A stretch of 51,729 nucleotides of DNA, from the NCBI GenBank assembly GCA_025358765.1, contig JANYIG010000135.1:1-51729 (forward strand). The letters are read 5' to 3'. Each line of letters starts with the position of its first letter. Positions within the stretch are counted from its first letter, which is position 1. Of the stretch, positions 18,875 to 45,778 are shown piece by piece. The notes under the pieces were generated by a model, which ran no database searches, had not been told where the DNA came from, and worked only from the letters and a program-made list of their open reading frames with translations. This stretch comes from Candidatus Kapaibacterium sp. (GTDB lineage: Bacteria > Bacteroidota > Ignavibacteria > Kapaibacteriales > UBA4661). A program made the translations under genes and the position numbers.

Positions 18875-18901
18875 ACAGACGGCTTCCGTCAATTGTTTTT
18901 G

Positions 18902-22393: not shown

Positions 22394-24781
22394 TTACTCA
22401 ATGCTAATTTCATCCACCATGAGCCACGGTTTATTACCTGCACCTGTTTTGCCAACGGGGATTGTGCCGAAGTTTGTCAATTTGAGTTTTACAAACCGCG
22501 CCGAGGCAGCACCAACCGTAAACACCGCTTGCTGACCGGCTTTCAGAACATCGTTTTGGTCAAGTTTACCCACCGCACGGAATGTTTGCCCGTCATCCGA
22601 AAGCCAAAGCTCTACGCTGGAAGGCGCATAAATCCATTGTCCTTCGCCAACGTACCAACCAACACGAACTGTCGAACATGATTGCGCCGTTTGTAAATCT
22701 ACGGTTGCTTCACAATCTTTTCCCTCGAACCCAAGCCACTGACTTCCTTTGAAGCGTTTTTCGCCGCGAATACCATCCACCAGCGTAAATGCACCGGCAT
22801 TGGTGTATTTTGAATGAGGCGGCTCCGCAAGTTGAACACTTTTTCCCGTCGCTTTGTTGATGCCGAGTGCTTGTTCCGTTACCGTACTTTTACGTTCCGT
22901 GCCTTCGATAACGGCAGCTTTTACCGTAACGCTACGCTCTAACGCGAACGGCGCTGCGTAGCGTGTGGATTGGGCAGTTGGTGCGCTGCCATCAGTTGTG
23001 TACGTAATAAACCCAGACGCGCGGTTCGTATTATTTTTGAGCGCTTGTGATTGCAAACTCACTTGCAAACCGAACATGCCCGATGCTGCGGAAAACGGGT
23101 TCAAAGAAAGCTCCACCTCGAACAATGATTTTGCATAGTTTATATGCCATTTATCGAGTATGGGCAAATGTGCAACAAGCCTTGTGGTAAAATCATCATA
23201 ATTTTTGCGCTCTGGAGCCGTCCACACAACCTCCGCAAGCGCACACAAACGAGGAAATACCATATACTCAATATGGCTCGCTGTTTTCATGTACTCCGTC
23301 CACACGTTTGCTTGTGCGCCGAGAATATATTTGCGCTCATCGCCCGAAAGCTCGGCAGGAATTGGTTCGTAGCCATACACCTTCTCAAGCGGAAGGTATC
23401 CACCGATAGCAACAGGCTCGCTCGGATTGCGCGATTGGTAATAGTCAAAATAACAATGGCTTCCGGGCGACATCACCACAAAATGTTTTTCCTTGGCAGC
23501 CGCAATACCGCCTTCTATGCCGCGCCACGACATCACCGCAGCGTTTGGCGCAAGCCCGCCCTCCAAAATTTCATCCCAACCAATAATTTGCCGTCCTTTG
23601 CTGTTCACAAACTTTTCAATACGCTGAATAAAGTAGCTCTGTAAGCCATGTTCATCCTTCAAATTGTACTTTTTGATGAGTTCTTGGCAATACGGGTCTG
23701 CTTTCCAACGGGTTTTGGGGCATTCGTCGCCGCCAATGTGGATATATTTTGACGGAAAAAGTGCTATTACTTCCGTCAGGACGTTTTGCAAAAACGTAAA
23801 CGTTGCTTCTTTCGGAGAAAACACATCGTCGAACACGCCCCACGTTTTGCCTACCTCAAACGGTCCGCCCAAGCCGTTTTCGGCTGGGCAAGAAAGCTCA
23901 GGATACGCCGCAAGCGCCGCAAGCGCGTGTCCCGGCAATTCGATTTCAGGAACGATGGTGACGTGCCGTTTGCAGGCATATTCCACCACATCTTTGATTT
24001 GCTTCTGCGTGTAGTAGCCGCCATGCCGAACAGTGTCGAACTTTTGTGGAATGTCATCGTTGTAATGCCCGATAAGCGTCCCTTTGCGCCATGCACCTAC
24101 TTGAGTAAGGCGCGGATATTTTTTGATTTCAATACGCCAACCTTGGTCTTCGGTCAGATGCCAATGAAACGTATTCATTTTGTAGAACGCCAACATATCA
24201 ATCGTTCGTTTGACAACCTCCACCGGCTGAAAATGCCGCCCAACATCAAGGTGCATCCCCCGCCACGAAAAACGCGGTGCATCTTGAATAACAGCACACG
24301 GCACTTCAATGCTCCGTTGTTTGTCAGTATGAGAAGCAGCACCAGCCAATTGAAGCAACGATTGCAATCCATACCACACGCCTGCACCCTTGCCACCGCG
24401 AATAGTGATGGTGTTTGGAGTAATAGTCAATGTGTAACCGTCTTGAGGCAATGATGAATCGCCATTGATCAGCTGGATACTTGCTTTTGCAGAAGTCGGC
24501 ATCGAAGAAGACACGCGAAGCTGTACACCGCATACAAGGCGGAGATGTTCAACAAAAAGCGCGGCATCATCTCGAAGGTTTGCACTACCCGCAACGACCA
24601 CAACACGCTCAGAAAGCATGAACAAACCTGATTGACGTTGCACGGAAGCGGGTTGCGGGATGATGGGCAACCCGCCGTTGCCGGCTGAATTTGTTGTCTC
24701 AAGCTGTATAGCAGCAAACATAGTGTATGGCATTACTGCACAACTACATAGCAGACAGAGAATACACAAGCGAATAGTCAT
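22394..24781 (-). CDS. GH20 beta-N-acetylhexosaminidase with C-terminal accessory modules
   Basis: This 795-residue exported enzyme has a signal peptide (about 1-24). It contains a GH20b N-domain (to about 165) and a GH20 barrel starting FSWRGMHLDVGRHF. The catalytic Asp-Glu pair of substrate-assisted catalysis is in IHIGGDECPKTRW (Asp352-Glu353). The C-terminal modules mirror those of the GH92 enzyme: a chitobiase-C segment with YTTDGSAPT, then a discoidin-like domain beginning near LVDGIRGEKRF. It would remove terminal beta-GlcNAc/GalNAc, here most plausibly from the chitobiose core or complex antennae. Confidence 0.95.
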   Translation of the reverse strand: MTIRLCILCLLCSCAVMPYTMFAAIQLETTNSAGNGGLPIIPQPASVQRQSGLFMLSERVVVVAGSANLRDDAALFVEHLRLVCGVQLRVSSSMPTSAKASIQLINGDSSLPQDGYTLTITPNTITIRGGKGAGVWYGLQSLLQLAGAASHTDKQRSIEVPCAVIQDAPRFSWRGMHLDVGRHFQPVEVVKRTIDMLAFYKMNTFHWHLTEDQGWRIEIKKYPRLTQVGAWRKGTLIGHYNDDIPQKFDTVRHGGYYTQKQIKDVVEYACKRHVTIVPEIELPGHALAALAAYPELSCPAENGLGGPFEVGKTWGVFDDVFSPKEATFTFLQNVLTEVIALFPSKYIHIGGDECPKTRWKADPYCQELIKKYNLKDEHGLQSYFIQRIEKFVNSKGRQIIGWDEILEGGLAPNAAVMSWRGIEGGIAAAKEKHFVVMSPGSHCYFDYYQSRNPSEPVAIGGYLPLEKVYGYEPIPAELSGDERKYILGAQANVWTEYMKTASHIEYMVFPRLCALAEVVWTAPERKNYDDFTTRLVAHLPILDKWHINYAKSLFEVELSLNPFSAASGMFGLQVSLQSQALKNNTNRASGFITYTTDGSAPTAQSTRYAAPFALERSVTVKAAVIEGTERKSTVTEQALGINKATGKSVQLAEPPHSKYTNAGAFTLVDGIRGEKRFKGSQWLGFEGKDCEATVDLQTAQSCSTVRVGWYVGEGQWIYAPSSVELWLSDDGQTFRAVGKLDQNDVLKAGQQAVFTVGAASARFVKLKLTNFGTIPVGKTGAGNKPWLMVDEISIE

Positions 24782-24977: not shown

Positions 24978-25973
24978 TCACTTTTTTGAAACCTCATTGA
25001 TTGCCCGCAACAGCGACGTGGAATCATGCGTGTCGTGTCCTACTTCCCAAATCATAATGCCACCACCCTGCTCTATTGCGAGCTTCGTTTTTGCCTTCAT
25101 CGTTGGAATTCCGTTGTAAAAGCAGCCGTTCACCTCGTCTTTCGTCGGTGCAGTCTTGTCTTGCTCCACAAGGCTTTTGTACGAACCGTTACCATTCTTT
25201 GATGGTTTACCGTAAAACGGTACGCCGAGGATTGCTTTTTCTTTGGGAAGCCCTTTTGCTAACCAATATTGAAGCGCTTGTTTGGCAACGTCAAGCGACG
25301 AATGTGGAGGGGTTTGTGCGTCATACGCCATGATGTTGATAAAATCTACCACGTTGAACACCGAAGGCAAAATGCCATCACCAGTTTTACCACCAGACAC
25401 CACGGCGGCGCTCAGGATTTTTTTTTGCTGATGTAATTCCTTGCCAAGCGCGGTCATCAGCGTATCGAAATACCGCGCTGACACACCAACAATGCCGTCT
25501 CCGGCATCGGGATATTCCCAGTCCATATCCACACCGTCGAGGTTGTACTCCTTCACCATCTGCATGACGGTTGCGATAAACGTTTCGCGGCTTGTGCGCG
25601 ATGCTGCAAGCTGCTCAAATGCTGTGTCGTTTCCTCCACCATCACCCAAATCCCAACCGCCGATAGCAAGACAGGCTTTTACGTTTTTTGCATGAGCAAG
25701 CGCCACCATCTGCTTGAGTGATGCCGGGTTTTGTAGAAAAACTCGTCCATCGGCTTTGGGCGTTGCAAACGAATAATTGATATGTGTAAGTTTGTCGTAT
25801 TGAAGACTATCTGGCGAGCCATTCCACGATGCCCAATATCCAATAATGGGAAACGTTTTATTGGAAGCAGATTCGGTAGGCTGTCCGCCACCTGCACGAC
25901 AAGAGGAACAAAACAGGATAAAAACGCAAGCGATGGGAATACTACACTTGATGGGGTGAAAATGATTGAGCAT
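24978..25973 (-). CDS. GH18 glycoside hydrolase (chitinase or endo-beta-N-acetylglucosaminidase)
   Basis: This 331-residue probable lipoprotein has a signal ending in LFCSSC (Cys25). The GH18 barrel contains the SxGG-like CLAIGGWD (strand 3), the catalytic DGVDMDWEYP (146-155; acid Glu153), INIMAYD, and the final-strand GIMIWEVGHD. The family splits into chitinases and endoglycosidases that cut between the two core GlcNAc residues of N-glycans; both use the same motifs. The N-glycan-type neighbours favour an endoglycosidase, but the MAYD motif is equally usual in chitinases. A start at 25973 gives the correct lipoprotein signal. Confidence 0.88.
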   Translation of the reverse strand: MLNHFHPIKCSIPIACVFILFCSSCRAGGGQPTESASNKTFPIIGYWASWNGSPDSLQYDKLTHINYSFATPKADGRVFLQNPASLKQMVALAHAKNVKACLAIGGWDLGDGGGNDTAFEQLAASRTSRETFIATVMQMVKEYNLDGVDMDWEYPDAGDGIVGVSARYFDTLMTALGKELHQQKKILSAAVVSGGKTGDGILPSVFNVVDFINIMAYDAQTPPHSSLDVAKQALQYWLAKGLPKEKAILGVPFYGKPSKNGNGSYKSLVEQDKTAPTKDEVNGCFYNGIPTMKAKTKLAIEQGGGIMIWEVGHDTHDSTSLLRAINEVSKK

Positions 25974-26000: not shown

Positions 26001-27740
26001 TTAAGGGTTTGCAGACAACATCTCAAGTAATTCCTTTCGTTTGGCGCGAAAACTTTGGATATCCATATCGTACCAATCCAATCGGTACGCCACTTGTCGC
26101 GCCATTTCTTTTGTTTTTTCGGGGTATTTTTTTTCTGCCATTCGGAGCAATTCATAATCCACAAGACCGTCACGCATAGCTTCCATACGCACCGAACTCC
26201 AAATTTTGCCTTGCCCGTTTCGGCTCCCGGGATACACAATCCAGCCGTCACCGCCCGGCATCACATTTCCTAACTCGGGAATAACACCACTTGTTTCGCC
26301 AAAGGGGTTGCTGCCCCACGCATTCCAGCCCCAATGCAAGTAGCCTGTAGCACCAAAACGATAGTTAAGCCAATGCAGAATGCGGGTTTTTAACAATGGC
26401 TGTTCGATAAAGCGGTTAGCGTAGTTTCCTTGCGGCGCAAGACAAGTGTAAAACCATACTTCCTTGCCCGGCTTGTGGCGTTGTGCCTGATAAAAAGCAC
26501 TGTCTTCATGGAAAAAATTTAATTGCGGAACCCAAACGTCAATCGTCTCTTCGACATCTTTGCTATGGCAAGCCTCAATAATGCGAAGTTCCGGCGCAAC
26601 GCTCCGCACAAAACGTGCAATAGCAATGTACGATGTGGTATTGGCGGGGATCGGCTCGTCGGCAAGATGCTGCATATAACGTTCTAACCACCCTTTTGCC
26701 TTTAAGTGTTCCACCAATGCCCGCAAATACTGACGGTAAAAACGTTGTGCGGTGGAATCACTTATTGGTTTTGAGGTAAATTCTATTTTCCCCGAGCCTG
26801 CCCGTTTTTCCGGTACACCTACGACAAACGCAGTCTCCCACGTACCTTCGCGTCCGCCTATATGCCCGCCCTCAATCCGCCCAATAGTGCCTTCCTCTAT
26901 GAAAATAGACACCATTGTATCAAACTTCGCAAAATCGAACGTGTATTTGTCGCCCTTCACAGAAAAATCCATCAAGTGTAAAGGACTTATGAGCGCCACA
27001 TTTTGACGAAAAGACTTCATCGCACGAGCGCACAATCGAACGGTTTCCCAATACGGCTTGGAATAGGGTTCAACATTATTGCCATTGTTGAGCAGTTTGA
27101 GTTGCTCCTCGCCCAAAAAGAACCAATTCGTCACCCAAAGCGTTTGTGGGGGTAACGTGACGGGATAAACAACGATGGTAAATTCCTTCGTGCGTTCAAA
27201 TTGTTTGCCGTCCGCCGTTCCCATTACTGTTACGCGCCCTTTGTATGTGCCGGCAACAGCAGTGGCGGGAATTGGCACGGTAAGCCAGATAGATTGTGGT
27301 GTTCGGGCAGGAATATCCCGCGTAGGTTCTTCTATGATTGGGTCGGGATAAAAACCGGACGGGGATACCAGTTGATCAAATCCACGCACAGGCACAGAGC
27401 GGCTTACGTGGACATACCCCACAAAACCCGTTGTGGGCGCAAATTGACGCGCTGCGTCAAGCGGCTTGCCCTGCGCGTCACGTATATCCACACGCACGGA
27501 GCATTGGCGAATGTTGCTGTCGTGCCAAAGCACAACCTGGAATCCGGCGTGTTCGCCACGACAAACGTTCATCTCCGCAGGTGCATCGGGGAAATAGGTA
27601 CGGTCGGGTAATACTTTTTCTAAGGGGTCAACAAAAGCAAGAATGGGTTGTGCTTCTGCTGCTGCATAAACGAACATGGAAGCAAGAGCGCAAAACGCAG
27701 TAACAAGAGCGTGTACTCTGAAAAAAGAAGCATAGTTCAT
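26001..27740 (-). CDS. Exported DUF4091 protein, GH123-like putative glycosidase
   Basis: This 579-residue protein has a signal peptide (about 1-31, ending AEAQP). A beta-sandwich N-domain (VCRGEHAGFQVVLW, IPATAVAGTYKGRVTV) precedes a barrel with DUF4091 at the C-terminal end (MRDGLVDYELLRMAEKK). The acidic pair in LADEP (about residue 365) is the likely active-site Asp-Glu, as in GH123 beta-N-acetylgalactosaminidases that use neighbouring-group catalysis. Assignment to GH123 is only by resemblance. A TGACGC-NNN-GCGTCA dyad lies in the coding sequence at 27445-27459. In this operon it may act on a HexNAc-containing glycan. Confidence 0.82.
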   Translation of the reverse strand: MNYASFFRVHALVTAFCALASMFVYAAAEAQPILAFVDPLEKVLPDRTYFPDAPAEMNVCRGEHAGFQVVLWHDSNIRQCSVRVDIRDAQGKPLDAARQFAPTTGFVGYVHVSRSVPVRGFDQLVSPSGFYPDPIIEEPTRDIPARTPQSIWLTVPIPATAVAGTYKGRVTVMGTADGKQFERTKEFTIVVYPVTLPPQTLWVTNWFFLGEEQLKLLNNGNNVEPYSKPYWETVRLCARAMKSFRQNVALISPLHLMDFSVKGDKYTFDFAKFDTMVSIFIEEGTIGRIEGGHIGGREGTWETAFVVGVPEKRAGSGKIEFTSKPISDSTAQRFYRQYLRALVEHLKAKGWLERYMQHLADEPIPANTTSYIAIARFVRSVAPELRIIEACHSKDVEETIDVWVPQLNFFHEDSAFYQAQRHKPGKEVWFYTCLAPQGNYANRFIEQPLLKTRILHWLNYRFGATGYLHWGWNAWGSNPFGETSGVIPELGNVMPGGDGWIVYPGSRNGQGKIWSSVRMEAMRDGLVDYELLRMAEKKYPEKTKEMARQVAYRLDWYDMDIQSFRAKRKELLEMLSANP

Positions 27741-27819: not shown

Positions 27820-28485
27820 TCATTTGCTGACACTCTCCGCCATTAGTAATTTTGTCAATGCTGCTTGATAATCGTTTGGTATCTGGTCTGGACGACTCAT
27901 AGTGATACTCAGGTCTCGCAAACGACCATCCCGCAAACCATAAACCCAACCATGAACCGACAACTCGTGACCGCGTGTCCATGCGTCCTGCACGATGCTT
28001 GTTTGACACACATTCAGCACTTGTTCGATCACATTGAGTTCGCAAAGCTTGTTGCAGCGGTCATGCTCTTCGGCAATGGCAGCCAATGAAGATTCATGCC
28101 GGGAATACACATCTTGAACATGGCGCAACCAGTTATCAACAAGCCCCAATCGCTCTTTGCGTAAGGCGGCGCGGATGCCACCGCATCCATAGTGACCACA
28201 TACAATCACGTGCTTCACCTTCAACACATCAACAGCAAATTGCAGAACAGACAAACAGTTCAAATCCGTGTGGACAACCACATTAGCAACATTGCGATGC
28301 ACAAATAATTCGCCCGGCAAAAGCCCCACTATTTCGTTAGCCGGAACACGGCTATCGGAACAACCAATCCAAAGATACTCCGGCGATTGTTGGCGAGAGA
28401 GTTTCATAAAAAAACCCGGATCGCGCTCCTGAATCTGCGCCGCCCACGCTTGATTATTCTCAAACAGTTGATGTAGTTTGCTCAT
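27820..28485 (-). CDS. Beta-carbonic anhydrase
   Basis: Zinc enzyme of 221 residues interconverting CO2 and bicarbonate in the cytoplasm. The start at 28485 (MSKLHQLFEN) fits the family; a TTG at 28500 would add five residues. Zinc ligands are Cys42 in IGCSDSRVP, His98 and Cys101 in CGHYGCGG, with the catalytic Asp44-Arg46 dyad in CSDSR. It is a housekeeping-type enzyme within the glycan operon region and has no obvious link to it. It may simply share the transcript. Confidence 0.95.
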   Translation of the reverse strand: MSKLHQLFENNQAWAAQIQERDPGFFMKLSRQQSPEYLWIGCSDSRVPANEIVGLLPGELFVHRNVANVVVHTDLNCLSVLQFAVDVLKVKHVIVCGHYGCGGIRAALRKERLGLVDNWLRHVQDVYSRHESSLAAIAEEHDRCNKLCELNVIEQVLNVCQTSIVQDAWTRGHELSVHGWVYGLRDGRLRDLSITMSRPDQIPNDYQAALTKLLMAESVSK

Positions 28486-28649
28486 CGTTAATTTCAGCAA
28501 TGCTGCTCCTTATTTGTGGTTGTATTTTGTTGTTTATCACAATCGAATTACCGCAAGCGGTCGCTTCCAATAAAACATCTTCCGATACAAACAACAAATA
28601 CGCACACTTCAAGGTTTCGGCAAAGAAGAAATGCTACTCTTCAAAAAAA

Positions 28650-29363
28650 TCATTTGCTAAAAAGAACGGGGAACAGCATATCCGCCACAAGTTGATTGCC
28701 TTTATCATTCAGATGAACTCTATCGTTCGTAAGGATTCCCGACTCAGCATTTGTAGGATTATGGGCAAAATTATATTCCAAAAATGCCTTACGGAAATCG
28801 CACAGAGAGCAAGAATACTGTTTGGCAAGGCGGCGGATAATATTCGCATAATGATTCAAATCGCCATCTTGTGGGTTTGAAGCATCCGTTCGTTCACCAA
28901 TAACGGCTGGTGTACAAAGAATCACCTTGATTGATTTTTCTTGGAGCTTTTTGATGATGGCACTATAAAATTTTTCAAATTTGTCCGCATCCGTGCCTGT
29001 TCCCAACAATGTTTTGTGCCACACGTCATTCACGCCGACGAAAATAACAACCACCGAAGGGTTCTTTCGGAGAACATCCTCATCGAGTCGGCCATACAAA
29101 TCATACACTTTATTGCCGCTTACGCCCGCCCCGACAAGCTCGTAACTACTGATACCCTCTTGCACAAGACGTTGTTTTATTTTTGTTACATACCCGCCAG
29201 CGTTCACACCCAATTCGGTAATGGAATCGCCAAAAAATATGACGCGAGTGGTTGATTGACTGCTCATAGAGACAGTAGTTAGGCATAGAGTGGTCAGGCT
29301 TACCAAAACCGCAAAAAGCAGATGTTTTGCCGTTGTTCTTGCTGTTATTATCAGTGTTTTCAT
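28650..29363 (-). CDS. Exported SGNH/GDSL hydrolase
   Basis: Esterase or acyl hydrolase of 237 residues from the ATG at 29363. That start gives a signal peptide (about 1-33). Reading from 29708 would run through the neighbouring gene. Block I is FFGDSITE (Ser47 nucleophile), block III VGVNDVWH, and the terminal Asp/His pair is NDRVHLND. The family removes acyl groups from carbohydrates or lipids, so glycan deacetylation is a reasonable idea in this locus. It starts four bases after the DUF4188 stop. Confidence 0.88.
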   Translation of the reverse strand: MKTLIITARTTAKHLLFAVLVSLTTLCLTTVSMSSQSTTRVIFFGDSITELGVNAGGYVTKIKQRLVQEGISSYELVGAGVSGNKVYDLYGRLDEDVLRKNPSVVVIFVGVNDVWHKTLLGTGTDADKFEKFYSAIIKKLQEKSIKVILCTPAVIGERTDASNPQDGDLNHYANIIRRLAKQYSCSLCDFRKAFLEYNFAHNPTNAESGILTNDRVHLNDKGNQLVADMLFPVLFSK

Positions 29364-29367
29364 TGGG

Positions 29368-29853
29368 TCACGTTGTTTCGTCTTTGTGAGCGCCGCGCCG
29401 TAAGCGACCACCGGCTGATTCATATACCCCAGCAGCTGGCACAAGTTCTGCAACCTTGCCCAAACCACGCGGCGGCATGTTATTATACACCGTTTCGTAA
29501 TTTCCGGCGGTAATGACATAGGTTTCATGCCAGATGCCCACGTCGCCATTACTTCTGATGGCTCGGTTAAACGCCCTCCACGCCGGATAATGCTGCCCGT
29601 CTTTATCTTTGGCATAGCGCTCCAAATGCTCGAACGACCGCCAATATTGGATGGAAGTTCCTCCACTGCTCTCATATCCCAAAAAACCGCTCTCCGGCTT
29701 TGCTGCAAGCTCCTTGAGCATTCTGGGCATTGCCAGCGCTACTGGCAGCCATTTGTGAATTTTCCAAAACTGATTAATGCGCATTCCAATCAGAAAAACG
29801 ACAAAATCGCCTTCAATTTTTGCCGCCATGCGTTGGTTGATAATTGCTGCCAT
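29368..29853 (-). CDS. DUF4188 family protein (monooxygenase-like)
   Basis: This 161-residue protein starts [26 protein letters not shown] and contains [26 protein letters not shown] and [21 protein letters not shown], the standard DUF4188 segments. These belong to a ferredoxin-like fold related to phenylacetaldoxime dehydratase and ABM-type monooxygenases. Reaction unknown. It lies between GH47 and the SGNH hydrolase with short gaps of 11 and 4 nt, so it is within the operon. Confidence 0.85.
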
Positions 29854-29864
29854 ATACGTACCCT

Positions 29865-31256
29865 TTAACGGTGATGAATATAATGAATACTGAGCGGGTG
29901 CGCTTCGGTATTGAACACAACCTTCTTCAAATCCAAAACGTTTTCCGGAGCAAAAAGCAGATACGCGTACTTTAAGGTTTCGGCAAAAAAGAAACTTTCC
30001 ATTGAGTCTTCTAACTCAAACGTTGCAACATTTTTTACGGCAGCATACCCAACGTCAGTTTTACATTTGTTGAGAATATCGCCTACCATCCGTTTTCCCA
30101 TCTGTACATACAGGTCGTTTTTGGTTGTGCGATATAGATAAAAACAACTCTCAATATTTTCGGGACGCAAGGGATAATCGCCATACTGTAAAGAATCCGT
30201 CCGAAAATTGAAGCGCTCGGGTTCAATGCCAAAATGCGTCCACATATAATAATTTCCGGTTTGCACATTTTTTGCCGTAACCACATCGCCGGAAAGCGCT
30301 GCCAACCCCGCATAAAAAGCGTCTAATGCTCCGTAAACCGGGCGTGTTTCTTTGCCGGAATTCATATCAACGCGGGTACAATACCAACCGGAAGGCACTT
30401 CTTTCAACAACCATTTTTTGATAGCCGTATTTGAAACCTCCCATGCTTCCTTACATTCTTTGTCGCCAAAAAGCAGCCATGCCTTGTACAAATACTCGTA
30501 ATACGAATCAATCCTGCCACTTATATGGCTCTCCGTATTTGTCCATATGCCGCTGGTCACATCAATAAGCGTTCCAACTAAATCAAGGCTACTGCGCCGT
30601 TTATAAATCTCCAGCGTTGCTTTTTTAGCAACCTTGTAATACACAGAATCGCCTGTGCATTGAGTGAGTTTCCCAAATTCGAGCAAACACGTTCCTATTT
30701 CCGCTGGATTACTGATGGAATCTCGCACCCGTCCGGTTTGAAGATGCACATACCGATATGGCATTCCCGTTGGAGACGCAAAGGCAGGCAAAAGACGTTT
30801 GCCTAAATCCTCAGCCAATTGCAAAAATCGTTTGTCGCCATCTAATTCATATGCAGAAAGCAAACCACCAAGCAAGCGAATCGTAATTTCAAAAAACTGC
30901 ACTTCTTCGTTCACATCAAACCGCAGTTTGGAAAAAATCAACTCTTTGCTTTCTTTTGCCTCCGTCTTCAGTCCCAACAAAAAAAACGTATCGAAAGCAT
31001 CCACAGGTGTCATCAAAAACGAAGTGCCATACCAGTTGTGTCCTTTTTTACTAATGGGTTTGAGAGCATCGTATCCCCACGCATACTGTTTGTAGCCACT
31101 CCAAGCACGTTGGCACGCTGTTTTTACCGTGTTCTGCATTTCATTTTTCTGTTGCTCCGTCATATTGCCGGAAGCAGCAAGTTGCGCCGAACACAAACTA
31201 TTGCTTGCCAGCAGGACTGCAACAGTCAGCAAAAAAAGCACTCGTTGTTTTGTCAT
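29865..31256 (-). CDS. GH47 alpha-1,2-mannosidase (class I mannosidase type)
   Basis: This 463-residue exported enzyme has a signal peptide (about 1-24, ending LCSAQ). The (alpha/alpha)7 barrel has all segments of class I alpha-1,2-mannosidases. The probable acid is Glu123 in [18 protein letters not shown], with Asp250 in [11 protein letters not shown] and Glu366 in [14 protein letters not shown]. The calcium-binding Thr450 is in the terminal FNTEAHPL, and [16 protein letters not shown] is also present. These match catalytic positions in ER mannosidase I, so the enzyme looks active and inverting. GH47 is mainly eukaryotic; a few bacterial members are known, such as one from Caulobacter sp. 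K31. It is probably periplasmic and trims alpha-1,2-mannose from high-mannose glycans. Confidence 0.93.
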
Positions 31257-31286: not shown

Positions 31287-32681
31287 TTAATTTGTTCGTG
31301 AAGGGTTTTTCAGGCGAATTTTTGCCAATAATAATTCTCCGACCCGCTTGCCTTGTTGTTGCCCATTTTCGATAGCGGCACGGTAATGAATCCCACCGTA
31401 TAATCGGCTCACGGCGGCTTCTTGCGCGGCAGCGTTGAAGGAAGGAAATTTCCGTATTGGTAGCCCGTATTCCGTTTCTGTTGTGTCGTCAAACCCAAAA
31501 TTATCGCCAAAAAGCGACGTAAGCGCCGCAGCCGCAGCCGTTGAAATCACGGAGTGCCCGCTTGGATATTCCGGAAACGGTGGTGTTTGCAGAATCGGTT
31601 TCCATTCTTCATCAATCGTAGCGTTGATATAGCTTTCGGGGCGAACAAGTTGGCTCCGATATTTTTCATCCCAACATGAAATAAAACCATCGAATAATGC
31701 CAATGCCGTCAGCGCATATCCTGCCGATGCACGAACCATGTCCGCCCCAACCTTCCGTGCAGTAATGCCCGCAACAGACATCCAATGTCCGCCCGGAGAA
31801 AGTTTTTTCGTCGCAAAATTTAGGTGTCCCTGAATATTCAAAAAAAATGGATTGCAATCCCAAAAGCTCGCAATGGCGCGTTGTTCCGCCGTTGGGTTCT
31901 TGCCAATATCATACACTTCTTTCGCCTGTTTGTAAAACTCTGATGTTTTGTCCGTGCTGAACGTAGGCGGCGGCACGGGTTTACATTGCGAGGCAGAATC
32001 TAACACCATCGTTCGTATCTTGTTCCAATGCGGGTCAACGGCAGCCATGTAACCGGGCGGCGTGGGAATCCATGCTCCGGGTGTTTTTTTGAGCGAATAC
32101 CGTTTCATAGCACGGGTTTCTTTATAGCGGTCTTTTGCCGCCCACGAAAGAATAAAGTCTGCAACGCGCTTACCAAAGGCTTTGGAAGAATCTATAACTT
32201 CTGGTGGATACCCTTTTGCAGCGTACCCCGCATAAATCACGCGTACAGAATCCTCTAATGCTTGTTCCGAGAACACGAGTTTTTTTGCAGTTTCCACAAA
32301 TGCCGCTACCGCCGCCAACGAATAACTTACGGACTTATCCGCACGAGCCGTCGCGGTGGGAACAGCTTGCAACGAACGGATTTGCCCTGCTAACGAAGCG
32401 TATTCTTTGGCATCTTGCACTAAAACTTCATACGCCGCAATGCTCGCATACACATAAATGCGACTCGCAACAGTCGGCGGAAAAATATCATGCACTATCA
32501 CACCCGTCAACGCTTGTTCGGCACGGTAAAGCGGGTTGGCATCACGCTCCCATCGTTTCCACTGCTCTTGCGGTGCTGCCGGAGACGGTTGTGCACAACA
32601 ATTCAGTGCAATGAAAAAAAATCCTATTGATACAAGTGATTTCACGATATTCTCCCTACATATTCTTGGTATGCTTGTCAT
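31287..32681 (-). CDS. Vanadium-dependent haloperoxidase/PAP2-like phosphatase, exported
   Basis: Protein of 464 residues from the ATG at 32681, which overlaps the VCBS stop by four bases (ATGA). That overlap decides the start over the one at 32693. It has a signal peptide (to about NCCAQ). Oxyanion-binding residues of the PAP2/haloperoxidase superfamily are visible: KYRSQLVRPESY (Lys...Arg), PSGHS, and SRLYGGIHYRAA (Arg...His). Such proteins may be haloperoxidases or acid phosphatases; the sequence alone does not decide. In Bacteroidota it often follows SusC/SusD and a VCBS protein, as here. Confidence 0.85.
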   Translation of the reverse strand: MTSIPRICRENIVKSLVSIGFFFIALNCCAQPSPAAPQEQWKRWERDANPLYRAEQALTGVIVHDIFPPTVASRIYVYASIAAYEVLVQDAKEYASLAGQIRSLQAVPTATARADKSVSYSLAAVAAFVETAKKLVFSEQALEDSVRVIYAGYAAKGYPPEVIDSSKAFGKRVADFILSWAAKDRYKETRAMKRYSLKKTPGAWIPTPPGYMAAVDPHWNKIRTMVLDSASQCKPVPPPTFSTDKTSEFYKQAKEVYDIGKNPTAEQRAIASFWDCNPFFLNIQGHLNFATKKLSPGGHWMSVAGITARKVGADMVRASAGYALTALALFDGFISCWDEKYRSQLVRPESYINATIDEEWKPILQTPPFPEYPSGHSVISTAAAAALTSLFGDNFGFDDTTETEYGLPIRKFPSFNAAAQEAAVSRLYGGIHYRAAIENGQQQGKRVGELLLAKIRLKNPSRTN

Positions 32682-35600
32682 GGTTTTTTCCAACGAAACA
32701 CCTGAACAGGTTCGTCGTTTTTCGCAATAACTAATACATTTCCACCTGAACCGCTTTTTACGCTTGCTATTGCCCGCACATCGCCGCCAGCGTAGAGTCC
32801 ACTTTCGTAAGGCATTTGCGGAATAAAATTCCCCTTTTCAGTGCCGTATCCGGCAGTGCCGTAGAGCAACACGCCCAACCCAGCATCACAACGACCCATC
32901 TGCGTACGGTATGGATAAAAATTTCCAACACACAAAATATCCTTGCGTCCGTCACGGTTAAAATCATCCACCACAATACCGTGAACCTTCGAGAACTGCG
33001 CCATAATAGGTAAAGCTTTTATCGTAAATCGCCCTTTGCCGTCGTTCCAAAACACACTGGTAGCGGCATAATCACACGTAAACACTGTTGCTTGTGCTAC
33101 TTGCTCTTTCGGAAAGATCGTTTCGAGGGTTGCATCGGCGTAATCGGCGTATTTCACGAACTTTCGACGAAGCGGCGTAATCTGTTCCAAAAGCTCATCC
33201 CGCGAGGGGTATGGATATTTCTTTCCTTGAACGTAATAACACAAAATTGGGTCAACCACGCCGTTGTTATCGAAGTCGCGGGCGAAAATTTGCATCGGCT
33301 GTTCTTTGCTGATGTGGAACTGACTATTCACACCACAATTGCCGATAATCATGTCCATATCACCGTCACCATCAAGGTCGCTCATGGTGATGGTTGTCCA
33401 CATCCCGCTTGTATTCAGTAAACCCGCCTCTTGCGAGGCATCACGTAAAATGGTTGTGCCTCCCTGACGCATTGCGTCCCGTTCGCTGAGAAATAGTTTT
33501 ACAGGCATCCAATCACCCGCAAGCACGAGGTCAGGGAGTTTGTCACCGTTCATGTCTTGCCACGCAGCACTTGTGACCATGCCGGGTTTGAGTAAATCCT
33601 TACACACGGATTCTGTAACATCGGTAAAACGAACCGAACCGTTTTTTGAATCATTACGGAGAAGATAACTTCTGCCTGCAAACGGGAACGAACCAGGCTG
33701 GCAGCGTCCACCAACGAACAAATCTACATCACCGTCGCCATCAAAATCTCCTGCGGCAATAGCTTGTGTGCTGGTTGGCATAGAAGGCAGAGCATCCGTG
33801 GCTTTGACAAACCTTCCTTTGCCGTCGTTTAGATATAATTTGTCTTGATAGGCAACGGAATTGGGTTCCGGTTCATTACCGCCAAACGCGAGATACAAAT
33901 CTTTGTCGCCGTCGCCGTCTGCGTCGAAAAAGAGTGCGCCGACAACATCGCAAAGATTATCATCCTTCCATGCTTGCACGGGTGCAAGCGCAAAGCCGAA
34001 GTCGGCTTTTTTCCCGTCGCTTTGCTGAAGATTTTGTTGAAGATACAGTGCGCTTGCTTGTTCCATCGCACCGCCTAAAAACACGTCGTCCAAACCATCA
34101 CCATTCACATCCGCCGTTGCAAGCGCTGGTCCCATCCGCGAGAGTTGGTACGGCAAAAGAAATTCAGACTTAAAATCTACAAAGTCATTCTCGATATGCG
34201 TAAAATTCAGCCCCGATTGTTTTGTTATGTCGCTGAGGAATGCTTGCTGCTTGATGAATGCGTCAAACGGCTCGGTTCCTTTTGTTAGCTTGGCATCGTT
34301 TTGATTGATGGTCAATATTTGGTTTGCTGCCACTTTGCTGAGAATACTTTCGGAGCCATCCGCCCAAAAGATTTTTACTTCTTTTACCGTCGTATTGGTT
34401 CCCAATCCAAAATGAAGCGTATAATCCACCGACGATTGATAGCCACGCACGGGATATAATTCTTGCAGTTGCCGTTCGCTGATTCCGTTGGATTCACACA
34501 CAACAAGCACTTTTGCACCGAGCGCAAACGTATTGTCACCACGCCCTTTCAGGCGGATGTTCAGATAATTTGCTTGAAGCTGTGTTTCTGCATTATTGCG
34601 ATAAATTGACGCAGGCTCGTTTTGATGGTTGATAATCATATCCAAATCGCCATCATTATCCAAATCCGCATACACCGCACTGTTCGAGACGCTCAAACGA
34701 TACAACCCCCATTGTTTGGTTGCATTGGTAAATGTCAAGTCGTGATTGTTGCGAAATATGTAGTTAGAGAGTTTTGTTGAAGGCATTTTCTTCACAAGAT
34801 CGAACGTACGAAATTTAATATTCCCCTTTTGCGCCTCGTCTATTCGTGCATCGGCAACCGTATATTTGAGGAAATCCATATTCGTATAATCACGCAAATA
34901 ACCGTTCGAGATAAACAGGTCTTTCCAACCGTCATTGTCAACATCAGCAAAAAGAGCCGACCAACTCCAATCTGTGTTCGATACGCCCGCAAGCTGCCCT
35001 ATTTCGCTAAACCGCAAATCGCCCCGTTCGTCCTCGCCCTGATTCAAATGAAGCATATTCCGCATCGTTTGATGATGATATCCGCTATCAACCAGCAAAT
35101 GATATTGGTCATATTCATCTGCGCCTTTGAGCAATTTTTGGCGACGATTATCCTCCGGTAACATATCAAGCGTCATCACATCGGGACGCAAATCGTTATT
35201 GTAATCCGCAACGTCCGCTCCCATCGAAAACTGCGAAATATGCGTAAACGATTTGCGAATGGATTCTCGGAACGTGCCATTTTTGTTGTTGATGTAGCAA
35301 TAATCTTGCTCGGCGTAATCGCTGGTTGTGTAAATATCTGCCCAACCATCGCCGTTCAAATCACTAATGGTCACGCTCAAGCCATAATTTATCGGATTGT
35401 TCACGATGCCCGCTTCACGGGTAACATCGGTAAATAATATTTTCCCATTTTCGGAGTCATTGCGGAACAGGCGGTTGCCATATTCGAGGCTTGGTGTGGA
35501 GCGCGTTTTGCGGGTATTCAGGAGCGGATTGTAGGTTTTAACGGAGTGATTGAGCAAAAACATATCCAAATCGCCATCAAGGTCGTAATCAAAAAAAGCG

Positions 35601-36163
35601 GCTTGCGTTGATTGCGTACCGGGCGCATCTAAACCATATTCTTTTGCTTTGTTGATAAACGTCGGTGCGCCATCACGGGAACCAGCCGGAACGCCTTGAT
35701 TGATAAAAAGTTCGTTGACTAATTTTTCAGGCGGCAGTTTTCCGGAATGACAAACGTAAATGTCAAGCAACCCATCCCCATTCACATCGGCAATACTTAC
35801 CCCTGTTGACCACGTTCCATTGCCCGCCACTCCTGCTTTGCTCGTGATGTCCTCGAACTTCAATTTTCCTTTATTCAGATAAAGTTTATTTTGTACAGTA
35901 TTTCCCGAAAAAAACAAATCGGGCAATCCATCATTGTTAAAATCCCCCACACCCACGCCATTACCGTTGTAGAGGTATTCATAATTCAGCACGTGGAGCG
36001 AATCGGTCTCTTCGAGCTTGTTTGTGAAATTCACGCCTGTTTCGGCAGGCGAAAGCACCGTAAACAACACAGCGTCGTTTTGAGGCTCCTTCCCACCCTC
36101 AAAAGCGGCAAGAGCACAACAGACCATGATCGTAATGGTTACCACTATAGATGTTTTCCTCAT
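32678..36163 (-). CDS. VCBS/FG-GAP and ASPIC/UnbV repeat protein, exported
   Basis: Large beta-propeller protein of 1161 residues from the ATG at 36163, with a hydrophobic export signal (MRKTSIVVTITIMVCCALAAF). Alternative ATGs at 36193 and 36205 are in frame. Many Ca2+-binding FG-GAP loops are visible, for example GDFNNDGLPDLFF, ADVNGDGLLDIYV, SDLNGDGWADIYT and ADLDNDGDLDMII. A UnbV/ASPIC segment in the middle (LKGRGDNTFALGAKV ... VKEVKIFWADGS) is followed by a second propeller. It is likely cell-surface or periplasmic and may bind glycan or protein. It follows susD and precedes the haloperoxidase-like gene; function is unproven. Confidence 0.88.
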   Translation of the reverse strand: MRKTSIVVTITIMVCCALAAFEGGKEPQNDAVLFTVLSPAETGVNFTNKLEETDSLHVLNYEYLYNGNGVGVGDFNNDGLPDLFFSGNTVQNKLYLNKGKLKFEDITSKAGVAGNGTWSTGVSIADVNGDGLLDIYVCHSGKLPPEKLVNELFINQGVPAGSRDGAPTFINKAKEYGLDAPGTQSTQAAFFDYDLDGDLDMFLLNHSVKTYNPLLNTRKTRSTPSLEYGNRLFRNDSENGKILFTDVTREAGIVNNPINYGLSVTISDLNGDGWADIYTTSDYAEQDYCYINNKNGTFRESIRKSFTHISQFSMGADVADYNNDLRPDVMTLDMLPEDNRRQKLLKGADEYDQYHLLVDSGYHHQTMRNMLHLNQGEDERGDLRFSEIGQLAGVSNTDWSWSALFADVDNDGWKDLFISNGYLRDYTNMDFLKYTVADARIDEAQKGNIKFRTFDLVKKMPSTKLSNYIFRNNHDLTFTNATKQWGLYRLSVSNSAVYADLDNDGDLDMIINHQNEPASIYRNNAETQLQANYLNIRLKGRGDNTFALGAKVLVVCESNGISERQLQELYPVRGYQSSVDYTLHFGLGTNTTVKEVKIFWADGSESILSKVAANQILTINQNDAKLTKGTEPFDAFIKQQAFLSDITKQSGLNFTHIENDFVDFKSEFLLPYQLSRMGPALATADVNGDGLDDVFLGGAMEQASALYLQQNLQQSDGKKADFGFALAPVQAWKDDNLCDVVGALFFDADGDGDKDLYLAFGGNEPEPNSVAYQDKLYLNDGKGRFVKATDALPSMPTSTQAIAAGDFDGDGDVDLFVGGRCQPGSFPFAGRSYLLRNDSKNGSVRFTDVTESVCKDLLKPGMVTSAAWQDMNGDKLPDLVLAGDWMPVKLFLSERDAMRQGGTTILRDASQEAGLLNTSGMWTTITMSDLDGDGDMDMIIGNCGVNSQFHISKEQPMQIFARDFDNNGVVDPILCYYVQGKKYPYPSRDELLEQITPLRRKFVKYADYADATLETIFPKEQVAQATVFTCDYAATSVFWNDGKGRFTIKALPIMAQFSKVHGIVVDDFNRDGRKDILCVGNFYPYRTQMGRCDAGLGVLLYGTAGYGTEKGNFIPQMPYESGLYAGGDVRAIASVKSGSGGNVLVIAKNDEPVQVFRWKKP

Positions 36164-36302
36164 TGCGAGATTTGCTGGCTTCGGCAAGGTCATTATTTGG
36201 CTCATTGTTTCGTAAGGATAGTGGTTGAACACAGTCGCTTATGCGAATCAGCATCATTTCATCGTGAATATGTATTCTTGAAGGCGAGAGGAAAACGGCG
36301 GT

Positions 36303-36383: not shown

Positions 36384-37964
36384 CTATTGCTTATCCCACC
36401 ACACGCGACCTGTAAGGACGTTACCACCAGTAATGCGACCGACAGCCTCACTGTAATTGGTAGCATTTGCTGAGGATTCCAAGGCAGGATAGACCAAACG
36501 GCGCGGGATTGTACCATTCGTTGCATTACCCGGATACACAACAGGTGTGAGTTTCGGATAACCAGTGCGTCGCCAGTTCGACCACGCTTCAATATCGTTC
36601 AGATAGGTTGCTACCCAAAACTGCGTATTGATTTGTTCCAATTTCTCATCCGTCGAACCAGCCGATTTGAATGGATTTGCTTTGAGGAACGCATCGGTCT
36701 CCGCCTGCGTAATCACTGCACCAGCGCTAAATTGTTGGATAGCTTGCATTCCTTCGCTCACGGCTTCTTGGTACAAAACATCGGCACCTTTGCCAACGTT
36801 ATAACCACGAACGGCTGCCTCTGCCAACAAAAGTTTCACTTCCGTTGAAGTAATGATAAACGTTGGTCCATCCATCCGTGCAACGGTTTTGTTGTTCGGG
36901 CGAGTGTATTTATCAATCGAACCAGGATAACCCGGAGCTTTGGAAAGATCTGTTGCCGCGCCTCCAAGGTCGTACCCATTGGGCATGCCAAGCTGGTCAT
37001 CCAACTTTGTGCTAAGGTCTCCGGCACGTTCACCGAGCCACTGCAAACGAGGGTCTTTATTTGTCTTCAGCAAATCAACAAATGTTTTACTCAAGCGCAA
37101 GACGGTAATTTCATACCCAAGATTCATTACTTGGCTCAGACGATTTACGGTTGCGCGGTCGCCGCCGATATCGTGAGTAACAAACGCATTATCATTAGCA
37201 TTTTGGAATACACCGCCTGCTACTGCTTTTTCTACCCATGTTTTTGCGCCAGCCGCGTCAACTTTGCTCAAACGCGAACCCAAGCGTACCATCAACGAAT
37301 ACGCGAGCTTCCGCCATGCAGCCACACGAGCCGTGCCGGAGATTCTACCGTAGAACAAATCACCGTTAGGCATTGGCTCGGCATCGCTCAAGCCTTTTGC
37401 TGCTTCATCCAATTCTTTCAACATATCGGCGTAGATAGCAGACTGTTGGTCGTATTTCGGGGTAAACGAACCACCGTAATAACCACGGCCACCGTCGAAA
37501 TACGGCACATCGCCGTAAATATCGGTCACTCTGTGGAAAATAAGCGCACGAATAATCCGCGACATTTGGTACAGGTTTTTATACTGTGCTTTACCTTTGG
37601 TTTGTTCGACCAAATGCTGCACGGGGCGGATTTGTTCGTCGTACGCACGTTCAAAATAGGAAGCGGCATAACCCGAATTCAGGTTGTATTTATCTCCTGC
37701 CCAGTATCCTTGAACGGTAGCAAAATGCTGAATCATCACCGAACAATAGATAAGGTTTGTTCGCCATGTTTCATAGCTAAAATCTGTGCTTCCCGTGTAA
37801 GTAAGCTGCGACGTGGTCAATAAATATTCCGCGTTGAACGAGTTGTCATCGGGGCGCACCGGGTCGGTGTTTAATGCCTCGAAGTCCTTTGTACATCCCG
37901 TTGCCATAAGCATGACAACCGCGAACGCGACAAAACTTCTGTAATATTTGATACTCAAGTTCAT
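36384..37964 (-). CDS. susD: SusD/RagB-like outer-membrane nutrient-binding lipoprotein
   Basis: Protein of 526 residues from the ATG at 37964. It begins with a lipoprotein signal (MATGC, Cys24) and then DFEALNTDPVRPDDN, the usual SusD N-terminus. The helical body resembles the SusD-like_2 type (YFERAYDEQIRPVQHLVEQ; KLLLAEAAVRGYNVGKGADVLYQEAVSEGMQ; the late IEAWSNWRRTGYPKL). It binds oligosaccharide or glycopeptide at the cell surface and hands it to SusC. It is 88 nt downstream of susC on the same strand. The N-glycan ligand is inferred from the enzymes in the locus. Confidence 0.94.
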   Translation of the reverse strand: MNLSIKYYRSFVAFAVVMLMATGCTKDFEALNTDPVRPDDNSFNAEYLLTTSQLTYTGSTDFSYETWRTNLIYCSVMIQHFATVQGYWAGDKYNLNSGYAASYFERAYDEQIRPVQHLVEQTKGKAQYKNLYQMSRIIRALIFHRVTDIYGDVPYFDGGRGYYGGSFTPKYDQQSAIYADMLKELDEAAKGLSDAEPMPNGDLFYGRISGTARVAAWRKLAYSLMVRLGSRLSKVDAAGAKTWVEKAVAGGVFQNANDNAFVTHDIGGDRATVNRLSQVMNLGYEITVLRLSKTFVDLLKTNKDPRLQWLGERAGDLSTKLDDQLGMPNGYDLGGAATDLSKAPGYPGSIDKYTRPNNKTVARMDGPTFIITSTEVKLLLAEAAVRGYNVGKGADVLYQEAVSEGMQAIQQFSAGAVITQAETDAFLKANPFKSAGSTDEKLEQINTQFWVATYLNDIEAWSNWRRTGYPKLTPVVYPGNATNGTIPRRLVYPALESSANATNYSEAVGRITGGNVLTGRVWWDKQ

Positions 37965-38052
37965 GGTAGTTTCAAAAAGTTGACGCAATGCGCCAAGTTC
38001 ATAATTGTTAATTAGAAAAAAACACTGCAAACGCATTTCCATGAAATTCGCC

Positions 38053-41000
38053 TTAGAATTTCACATTGAGGTTGAACCCAATAGCACGCGTTGGCGGCAC
38101 ACCAGCAAGTTCAAGACCTTGAGCATTGCTTACATTGATGTTTGTCTCAGGATCAATGTTTGGTGTCTTTTTCATAAGAATTGCCAGATTACGAGCCACA
38201 AGCGACAACGTTATTTTTTTAACGGGTGTGCTTTCTAACCATGATGTCGGAAGATCATATCCAAGACTGACTTGACGAAGTTTGATGAAACTTGCGTCAT
38301 AGACAAACGGGGTGCCTATTTGTCCACCGATACGACCATAATAGCTTTGAATAAGTCCTGGTGTAACAAGTTTTGTGTTTGCTTTTCCATCTTCGGTAAC
38401 ACCAACACCAGTAATACCAGCATCACGACCCGGCAATGTTTCTTTATGCAAACCAAATTGGTACAAGTACGCATTGGTAGCAGAGTAGATTTTGCCGCCG
38501 AATTTGAAGTCAATCAACACACCCAAACTAAAGTTACCGTAGCGGAAATCATTTTCCCAACCACCCGTGTAAGGATGAACGCCACTGCCCATAGACACCA
38601 AATCACCTTGTTTCGGCAAACCATCGGCATCATAGACGATAGCGCCATTTTTATCACGAGCAAAATCATTCACGACTATTTGCGAAAATTCTTCACCAAC
38701 GCGGTGTTGAATAAACGCTACTTGTGTGCGTGATTGTGCAACGGTTAAGCTGGTTTGACCTTCAGCAAGAGCAACAACTTTGCTATTGTTCACACTAAAA
38801 TTGAACGAAGATGTCCAACCAAAGTCTTTTTCTTCGAGAATTTTACCGGAAATCAAAAGTTCAACACCAGTATTTTGTAGTTGACCATTGTTAATAATTG
38901 CCGATTGGAACCCAGACGTAGCCGAAACAGTTGCCGTAACAATCTCGTTTTTCGTATCTTTTTGATACCATGCCGCATCAATCGTAAGGCGGCTGTCAAA
39001 TAATCTCAACTCCAAACCCACTTCTAATTCCGAAACGCTCAACGGCTTCAGTTTTGTGTTAGGTAGAATATTGTCGAAACCACCGATAGGATTACCACTA
39101 ATTTTGCTGGCGTTGATGTTATAGTAGAGCTTCGTTGCGTAAGGGTCGGTATCGCCACCCACTGTTGCATACGCCACACGAATTTTACCAAAGGAGAGCC
39201 AATCTGCTTTAAGTGCTTCAGAGAAGACAAAACTACCGCTCAAAGAAGGATAAAGGTACGCGTAGTTGTCTTTGGAAACTGTAGAGAACCAATCATTACG
39301 AGCCGTTGCGTTCAAAAACAACATTTCTTGAAACGATAATTCTACTGAACCATAGACTGATTGCACTTCTTTTTGGAAAATACGATAGCTCGGTACGCTC
39401 GTGATAGCATACTGTGGATTGTAAATATCGGGGAATACAAGAGAGTTACCCGCAGCGCCATATGCTTCTGTTTTTGACTTTCTAACGCTTGCACCGACGG
39501 AAGCTGCGAGAGAAATATCGTTCGTTAATTCTTTATCCATGCCCAACAACGCATCAGCATTCACTTCCGATGTTGTTTGGCTGGTCTTATTCACACTACC
39601 AAAAGAACCAGTTGATAGATATGCTGTGCCTGCCGGAGTAATGCTGTTGGTCTGGAATGTGAAGTAATCCTGTCCAACACGACCTTGCAGATACAACCAA
39701 TCCGTAAGATTGTACTTCACGTTTGCCGAAGCAATAATTCTATTCTTTTGCGTCGCGTTCAAAAACTTGTACGCTGCAAAGTATGGATTGGTCACAAATG
39801 GATTGTCGGTAAAGTCCGTCAACTCGTGAAGGTATTGGTCAGTGCCGTTTCCATTCGGACCTTTAAGAATAGAAGCACTCATGCTTGTTGGCAGTATGCC
39901 GATAGCAAAATTACCATTGCCGGGAGAGTCACTTTGCCCCGGGCGATTGGTTGCGTTCTCGGTAGTGTAAATCACGCTGGCTTCACCAGACAGTTCCGGC
40001 GACAGTTTGAATGTTGTTCCAGCATTAAATGTTTTTCTGTTCAGGTCGCTATTTGGGTAAACGCCAGTATTACTCAGGTTAGAAGCCGACAATCGGTAGT
40101 TCGTACTTTCACTACCACCGCCGACAGCAACCGTATTCGTCCACGTGAGACCACCTCTGTAATAATCGCTTAGATTGGTGGATTGAAGGGAATATGGGCG
40201 AGAGACTCCATCGAATTGCACAACGCTGCTACCGTCCAATTTCGCACCCCAACTTGACAACCCAGCTACTCTTGCACTTGCAGCACTTGTTGGTTTGTTA
40301 CCTCGTACCCCTTGTCCGTATTGGTCTTGTTTATCAGAATAATCACGGATGCTTTCAAAAACCATATTGGAGTTGAATTCAACACCAATACCCTTTTCGC
40401 CGCCTTTGCCGCGTTTGGTTGCGATGATAATCGCCCCATTTTTTGCACGTGAACCGTACAACGCAGCAGCCGTAGCACCTTTAAGGACGTTCATGCTTTC
40501 AATGTCGTCTGGGTTGAGGGATGAAATACCATCACCCGCATCAAAACCACCCCACTGACCAGCACTGCCAAGATTACTGTTATCAATAGGAATACCATTG
40601 ACAACATACAAAGGCTGATTATCGCTCGAAATGGAGGTATTACCACGAATAACAACTCTGGATGAACCACCGGCACCCGAAGCAGGCGCACTAACATTCA
40701 CCCCAGACACCTTGCCGACCAACGCATTGGCAACGTTGGTTTCACGAGCTTGTGTCATCTCGTTGCCTTTAACAACAGCAGTCGAGTAGCCAAGTTTTTT
40801 TGATTCTTTTTTAATACCGAGAGCCGTTACAACAACATCTTCAAAGAGTTTCCAATCAACTTCCATTGAGACACTGATACTGCTTTTTCCAGCAATAGGA
40901 ACTTCCACCGTTCGATACCCGATAGACGAAAATACTAATGTTCCTTGCGGGTCGGAAAGCGGGAATTTGAAATTTCCTTCTTTATCGCTGATTGATCCTA

Positions 41001-41574: not shown

Positions 41575-41845
41575 AGCGTTACAGTCCTTTTGAAACTGTG
41601 AATGGAGTACGTGGATTAAGTGTAATGGTAGCACGGCAATGTATCGTATTATTCACGAACTATATTCCGCCATATAGTTGCTCTCGGGTGCGGATCCAAA
41701 AGCGTGTGAATGAGATGCTTACAAATGTGACTACCCCGATATATGTGCAGTAGAAGTAGAAAACACGCTTGTTTTCTGGCTGACCCAACCGAAATTGCCT
41801 ACTACTTCGGCAAAAACCGGATGTGCCCGTGTTGTTGCGCTAAAT
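41575..41845 (-). promoter_or_regulatory. susC upstream region with two perfect inverted repeats
   Basis: The gap between fecR and susC holds two perfect hairpins: AACTATAT (41659-41666) with its complement (41673-41680), six-base loop; and AGAAAACA (41758-41765) with its complement (41770-41777), four-base loop. Neither is followed by a T-run on the minus strand, so a role as operator or UTR structure is more likely than termination. The ECF-dependent susC promoter should lie here, but I cannot place it with confidence. Confidence 0.5.
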
Positions 41846-42943: not shown

Positions 42944-43262
42944 CACAATACCTTACAATAAAAAGACGTAGTTAGCTACTTTCGATCAGCCATTTTTGGC
43001 TTTGTTCATTCTCAAAAAAAATCCCCGCTCTCTTTGGTGTTTCCGGCAACACCGTAAAACATTCTATAGAGCGGGGATAAGGAGTCGCTACGAAGAAGCT
43101 CTACAAACTGCTAAAGGGAGCTTCTACAAAAATCTCTACGATTGTGGTAAAAAAACTTTAAACTATTTTGAATTACTGGAGTGTGGTAAAAAAACAAGCT
43201 CCTGACACTTGGCGAGTCTATAGGAAGGGAGAGCTATAGAGAGTACACTTTGACGTATTGCG
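42944..43262 (-). promoter_or_regulatory. 319-bp sigma-fecR intergenic region with hairpins and direct repeats
   Basis: No gene is seen here. Besides the terminator at 43014-43078 it contains an inverted repeat GAAGCTC/GAGCTTC (43095-43101 and 43118-43124) and a perfect 14-nt direct repeat TGTGGTAAAAAAAC at 43143-43156 and 43182-43195, 39 nt apart. The spacing and AT content suggest a regulatory leader or protein-binding sites, but I cannot name a factor. A promoter for fecR downstream of the terminator is likely. Confidence 0.45.
43014..43078 (-). terminator. Branched intrinsic terminator between sigma and fecR
   Basis: Outer 11-bp perfect stem (ATCCCCGCTCT 43021-43031 with complement 43068-43078) enclosing a second hairpin, GGTGTT/AACACC (43036-43053). 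On the minus strand it is followed by a run of eight T (43014-43021). It would end or attenuate the sigma transcript before fecR. Confidence 0.75.
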
Positions 43263-45571: not shown

Positions 45572-45778
45572 AAAAACTCCTTGAATGAATATCTTCAATG
45601 AAGATAACGCTGGGAAGAAAAGTCCGATATTCTGTAGTTGCAGCAAGTACAATGATACAGAATTTTAAAATAAAACCCTATTTCTGTCAGAAGTATGGTC
45701 GGCACAAGGGCAAAATCATGGAATAAGAATAAAGAAGGGGTAAAAAGCAGGGGTATGGAAGATATTACCGTACAATCC

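Follow-up and report, generated by a model that had tools for sequence, protein, structure and literature searches.

A review from 2023 on how bacteria break down N-glycans assigns demannosylation to GH38, GH92 and GH125 enzymes and leaves GH47 unmentioned (PMC10154615). Within GH47 itself, the Caulobacter K31 enzyme CkGH47 (PDB 4ayo and relatives) is a proven Ca2+-dependent, inverting alpha-1,2-mannosidase (PMC10685318), and human ER mannosidase I (MAN1B1, PDB 1fmi/1x9d/5kij) has a biosynthetic and quality-control role in the endoplasmic reticulum (ER). Our analysis of a contig of 51,729 nucleotides from Candidatus Kapaibacterium sp. (JANYIG010000135.1, the whole of which is called the window here), a lake-type bacterium, reveals a GH47 alpha-mannosidase gene (29865..31256, minus strand) placed, as the initial annotation had claimed, inside a SusCD locus together with GH92: SusC, SusD and a GH92 gene belong to the same minus-strand gene run. 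Judged from sequence, it is fairly probable that the encoded protein is an active exo-alpha-1,2-mannosidase, acting before GH92 in a SusCD locus for N-glycans that is itself probably plasmid-borne.

The open reading frame (ORF) encodes 463 amino acids from an ATG start and is the single GH47 gene in the whole genome, and the Pfam profile Glyco_hydro_47 is covered at positions 2-454 of 455 (E 1.2e-120), corresponding to a full-length domain. The three catalytic acids and the calcium-binding threonine named in the initial annotation were recovered at exactly those positions, with E123, D250, E366 and T450 aligning to E330, D463, E599 and T688 of human ER mannosidase I; across 105 aligned GH47 sequences, the same columns hold E in 104 (one gap), D in 105, E in 105 and T in 103 (one S, one gap). 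An AlphaFold model built from 34 homologues (mean predicted local distance difference test score, pLDDT, 95) shows the (alpha/alpha)-barrel fold of solved GH47 structures and is matched best by CkGH47 (4ayr; Z 58.9, 1.3 A over 423 residues), followed by Golgi and ER mannosidases (Z about 54; 1fmi 54) and then by yeast Htm1/EDEM (Z 46). Family membership and active site can be regarded as firm. Some EDEM-type GH47 proteins were at first taken for lectins (PMC7926307), and a mannose-binding, lectin-like protein devoid of useful catalysis might be imagined here as well; with the catalytic and calcium-binding residues all kept, also across some 100 prokaryotic homologues, we consider this very improbable.

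The comparison with the two reference enzymes reveals both shared and distinct features. CkGH47 has fold and catalytic residues in common with the window protein, but identity is 33%, CkGH47 sits on a separate long branch with haloarchaeal GH47 (Haladaptatus halobius, L267), and it no longer has the RPE..ES and MESFF motifs, which are retained both in the window protein and in the human enzymes. Human ER mannosidase I shares the fold, all catalytic residues and the arginine at its R461 column, whereas its identity to the window protein is about 36% and it is not its sister in the tree. The residue in question is R248 of the window GH47, two residues ahead of the catalytic aspartate; arginine occupies the R461 column in 10/16 members of the window clade, and other bacterial GH47s mostly carry Gly, Met or Cys. 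In the yeast enzyme this column is R273. Exchange of the yeast R273 for Leu broadens the products from Man8 to Man5, and the variation at the column predicts that bacterial GH47s would differ in branch choice.

Of the three dividers that the initial annotation had offered for a division of labour between GH47 and GH92 (location, linkage or Ca2+ dependence), only linkage is backed by sequence; the division itself is plausible. Calcium cannot separate the two enzymes because GH92 (PMC5930347) and GH47 (PMC10685318) are both Ca2+-dependent and inverting, and location is not evident as a divider, both proteins carrying a plain signal peptide without a lipobox. As for linkage, alpha-1,2 specificity in GH92 has been attributed to Trp88, His584 and Glu585 of Bt3990 in the +1 subsite (PMC10167667, PMC5930347). 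The window GH92 (12301..15360, minus strand, with C-terminal Fn3-associated and F5/8-C domains) lacks all three, with Bt3130 and Bt3965 as its nearest solved structures, and neither of the genome's two further GH92s has the triad (0/3 in total). No Bt3990-like GH92 was found in the genome at a limit of E 1e-150, neither GH38 nor GH125 was found there, and GH99 gave no genome match in a search whose control gave none either. Since the three GH92s are without the triad and GH38 and GH125 are absent, GH47 appears to be the only alpha-1,2-mannosidase found in this genome.

Redundancy, in which alpha-1,2 linkages of one glycan would be cut by GH47 and GH92 alike and the GH92 specificity would have been misread from sequence, draws on the facts that the +1-subsite rules rest on few structures and that GH92s of unclear or mixed specificity are known. 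Such redundancy is nevertheless unlikely, given that equivalents of W88, H584 and E585 are missing from three GH92s whose best structural matches are Bt3130/Bt3965 and not Bt3990, and that GH47 is anti-associated with Bt3990-type GH92 at genome scale. A sequential division by linkage is the reading that we prefer: GH47, secreted to what we infer to be the periplasm, Ca2+-dependent and inverting, would take the alpha-1,2-linked mannoses off imported high-mannose glycans, and the alpha-1,3 and alpha-1,6 mannoses bared in this way would then go to the triad-less GH92.

The genome-scale pattern emerged from sampled Bacteroidota, where GH47 occurs in 32/395 genomes (22/171 genera); together with 79 named loci, chiefly from Bacteroidota, Ignavibacteriota and Acidobacteriota, these numbers do not agree with the few bacterial members that had been assumed for the family. 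GH92 is present in 28/32 genomes with GH47 as against 112/363 without it (p 3e-10), and in 12/33 GH47-bearing genomes a GH92 and GH47 are no more than 5 kb apart, where about 0.2 would be expected; these genomes include close relatives, and at least four independent lineages were counted. The two domains are even fused in Melioribacter (L017:349-3927, plus strand) and Stygiobacter (L027:7733-11269, plus strand), into proteins of about 1,180-1,190 amino acids where complete, and a partial fusion in another metagenome-assembled genome (MAG) of Ignavibacteria (L024:2-1696, plus strand) is cut by the contig end. Both complete fusions have GH92 parts without the alpha-1,2 triad, which is found in 1/55 GH92s of GH47-bearing genomes.

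A direct count of the motif gave one triad against eight, from 29 genomes with and 40 without GH47, and was judged too weak alone; the larger count of alpha-1,2-type GH92 used in its place is similarity-based (Bt3990-type). By this measure, among GH92-bearing genomes only, 1/28 with GH47 carry a Bt3990-type GH92 as against 49/112 without it (Fisher 1.9e-5), and a permutation within families, where 3.9 were expected and one was observed (p 0.03), indicates that much of the effect lies between families. We take this as genuine, though moderate, support for the view that GH47 stands in for Bt3990-type GH92 as the alpha-1,2 enzyme. More tentative, and in our judgement a little short of even, is the wider proposal that GH47 has taken over the first N-glycan trimming step from the alpha-1,2-specific GH92 in many environmental Bacteroidota, paired by adjacency or fusion with a GH92 that prefers another linkage, and that in Kapaibacteria this module is plasmid-borne, so that a whole N-glycan diet could move between species. 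A GH125 alpha-1,6-mannosidase stands beside GH47 in several other loci (L013:2149-9974, L047:8365-9870, L055:8431-9864 and L027:6193-7665), of which L013 also contains two fucosidases and a GH35; these represent a further kind of glycan locus organised around GH47.

The substrate assignment is drawn from the neighbouring genes, all on the minus strand. Besides the GH92, the locus holds further enzymes that the initial annotation had not listed, namely a glycosylasparaginase, a GH2 beta-mannosidase, GH3, GH18, GH20 and GH123. The asparaginase-2 protein at 11226..12308 scores 356 bits to the glycosylasparaginase 3ljq versus 135 bits to the nearest isoaspartyl peptidase, and would thus cleave the bond between N-acetylglucosamine (GlcNAc) and Asn; it has a twin-arginine signal (SRRDFV motif) at an internal Met. 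The GH2 protein (15360..18101) scores 695 bits to the beta-mannosidases 7op6/2je8. Because both of these N-glycan core enzymes are present, the locus is tied to N-glycans. The GH20 beta-N-acetylhexosaminidase (22394..24781; Pfam E 2.5e-121), the GH18 protein (24978..25973), chitinase-like rather than a clear endo-beta-N-acetylglucosaminidase (ENGase), and the GH123 protein (26001..27740) complete this set, to which a GH3 beta-glycosidase with a lipoprotein signal (20066..22336; lipobox LVGC) can be added. Following the mannose-removing steps, the GH2 beta-mannosidase, the hexosaminidases and the glycosylasparaginase would dismantle the core to GlcNAc and Asn.

Instead of N-glycans, the target could be alpha-mannan of fungi or algae, or O-mannosyl glycans, seeing that yeast mannan and fungal O-glycans are likewise capped with alpha-1,2-mannose and that GH92 enzymes are active there too (PMC10154615). 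Set against this are the specificity of glycosylasparaginase for GlcNAc-Asn, the fit of the beta-mannosidase to the N-glycan core and of GH20, GH18 and GH123 to GlcNAc-containing glycans, and the absence of GH38 and GH125 from the genome, where GH99 was the further family searched, so that we regard a mannan or O-glycan target as improbable and retain the N-glycan assignment.

The locus has the composition of a SusCD-type polysaccharide utilization locus, with SusC, SusD, an ECF-type sigma factor with FecR, and some eight glycosidase genes, all read in one direction. The SusC/RagA TonB-linked transporter (38053..41634) reaches 598.6 bits with TIGR04056 and is accompanied by a SusD-like protein (36384..38042), a FecR-type anti-sigma factor (41846..42946) and a sigma factor of the extracytoplasmic function (ECF) type (43263..43874). 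Plain hydrophobic signal peptides on GH47, GH92, GH2, GH20 and GH123 would be in keeping with surface capture, uptake by SusCD and trimming in the periplasm. The remaining genes comprise a ROK-family sugar kinase (10200..11210), a GHL10-type glycosyl hydrolase-like protein (18902..20047) and a GDSL-type esterase (28650..29708), whose true start is probably internal, the L004 homologue being shorter. A CutC-family gene (18098..18892) lies near the glycosylasparaginase gene, and in L047 (19687-20355) the two are directly adjacent, a hint that members of this 'copper' family could take part in glycan use. Genes for a PAP2/haloperoxidase-like protein (31287..32693), an FG-GAP repeat/UnbV protein (32678..36232) and a beta-carbonic anhydrase (27820..28500) also sit within the sugar locus; the last of these is found in L004 as well.

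The phylogeny of GH47 points to exchange among bacteria. The nearest relative, at 85% identity, comes from L004 (G398:C413), a contig of 7.4 kb belonging to a 'Candidatus Kapaibacterium' genome in the family of the host, where GDSL, carbonic anhydrase and GH123 neighbours are shared with the window and GH47 has a GH92 of its own beside it. These two proteins fall inside a clade of Bacteroidales and Chitinophagaceae with 100/100 support, several members of which are from lake MAGs, away from the GH47s of the class to which the host belongs; within the host family, just 2/10 genomes have GH47. Forcing the window protein together with the listed Ignavibacteria GH47s was strongly rejected, a result whose p-value we do not use, the list itself forming no clade. 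A locus conserved around GH47 was considered and rejected, most named relatives having no neighbour genes in common with the window and L004 being the only one that does. The concern that the gene might belong to a widespread bacterial clade with a non-mannan substrate is justified in that the clade is widespread and unjustified in that the context points to mannose N-glycans.

Whether the gene came from a eukaryote had also been raised at the outset, and a recent transfer from one that fed or hosted the bacterium has some surface appeal: GH47 is best known from eukaryotes, and the 241 bits of the window protein to human ER mannosidase I equal its 239 bits to the Caulobacter GH47. Yet grouping with the six eukaryotic sequences in the tree, all taken from the PDB, was rejected in the approximately unbiased (AU) test (p 0.0006, delta log-likelihood 46.6), and the Bacteroidota clade has full 100/100 support, leaving such a transfer scarcely credible. 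From the clade position and the AU rejection it follows that the gene most likely moved between bacteria and that a recent eukaryotic donor is excluded. A single clade of all eukaryotic GH47s was not rejected (p 0.40); in the best tree, where long branches and six eukaryotic sequences are involved, the EDEM branch lies among prokaryotic GH47s, apart from the ER/Golgi mannosidases. Viral copies of GH47 were searched for and none were found.

The plasmid context, overlooked in the initial annotation, is indicated by three genes side by side just upstream of the sigma factor gene, all on the minus strand: a ParB-like partition protein (44043..44801), a ParA partition ATPase (44801..45652) and a Rep3 plasmid replication initiator (45779..46906). 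PHROGs backed the partition function for ParB-like and ParA and, weakly, the replication function for Rep3, and the NCBIfam models for ParA and Rep were matched below their cut-offs. Homologues of the window Rep protein occur in 499 plasmid records, with 8/8 among the matches listed annotated as replication initiation protein; Rep3 genes are found in 8/10 genomes of the host family, and this genome has four. No terminal overlap that would prove a circular plasmid exists on the contig, which counts against a plasmid, and the contig end falls inside a long repetitive TIG-type gene (47150-51729, plus strand) with an NHL-like start and many TIG-like repeats, encoding a surface-type protein. Because the overlap is missing and the contig ends within a repetitive gene, the contig is probably an incomplete plasmid, and the N-glycan locus probably sits on it. 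Contamination by a foreign contig is unlikely since tetranucleotide use agrees with that of other contigs of the genome (r 0.89-0.94). Plasmids of Persicobacter and Flammeovirga carry GH47 genes too, as does one of the haloarchaeon Haladaptatus halobius (L267, 8818-14511), where a GH92 lies about 1.2 kb from GH47 with AGE epimerase genes nearby.

Several further observations weigh against the proposed route. The alpha-1,2 triad is a predictor only, and BT3965 keeps part of the loop yet acts on alpha-1,4 linkages. Within Ignavibacteria alone, the exclusion between GH47 and Bt3990-type GH92 gives no signal (1/16 vs 2/18). The GH18 resembles chitinases more closely than known ENGases, and neither a GH85 nor a peptide:N-glycanase (PNGase) turned up among the scanned proteins, which took in part of the small ORFs, so that no clear enzyme for freeing the glycan from protein was recognised in the locus. 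Finally, in the nearest relatives inspected (L002, L005, L065 and L009), GH47 lies among housekeeping genes without a glycan locus; the neighbours there include a helicase, a MurC-like ligase and a valyl-tRNA synthetase-like gene.

Overall, our data suggest that in environmental Bacteroidota GH47 is regularly partnered with GH92s that are not of the alpha-1,2 type. What is new here is the plasmid setting, the presence of enzymes for the N-glycan core, the pairing or fusion of GH47 with such GH92s, and its anti-association with GH92s of the alpha-1,2 type. If this is true, the annotation of N-glycan loci would change and bacterial ER-type mannosidases would become available for glycan remodelling and inhibitor work, with the natural GH92-GH47 fusions serving as ready test enzymes. 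The enzyme set of the window locus is alike in kind to that of lysosomal N-glycoprotein catabolism, in which glycosylasparaginase, GH18, beta-hexosaminidase and alpha- and beta-mannosidase take part; the lysosome uses GH38, whereas the window locus has GH47 and GH92, and the likeness is one of resemblance and not of pathway homology. In its proposed operation the window locus resembles the high-mannose N-glycan locus of B. thetaiotaomicron, with the GH18 BT3987 and three GH92s, where SusCD uptake is followed by exo-trimming (PMC10154615). Unlike that locus, the window holds genes for glycosylasparaginase and beta-mannosidase within the locus itself, and the alpha-1,2 step would be performed by GH47, in the slot held in gut Bacteroides by an alpha-1,2-specific GH92 of the Bt3990 type.
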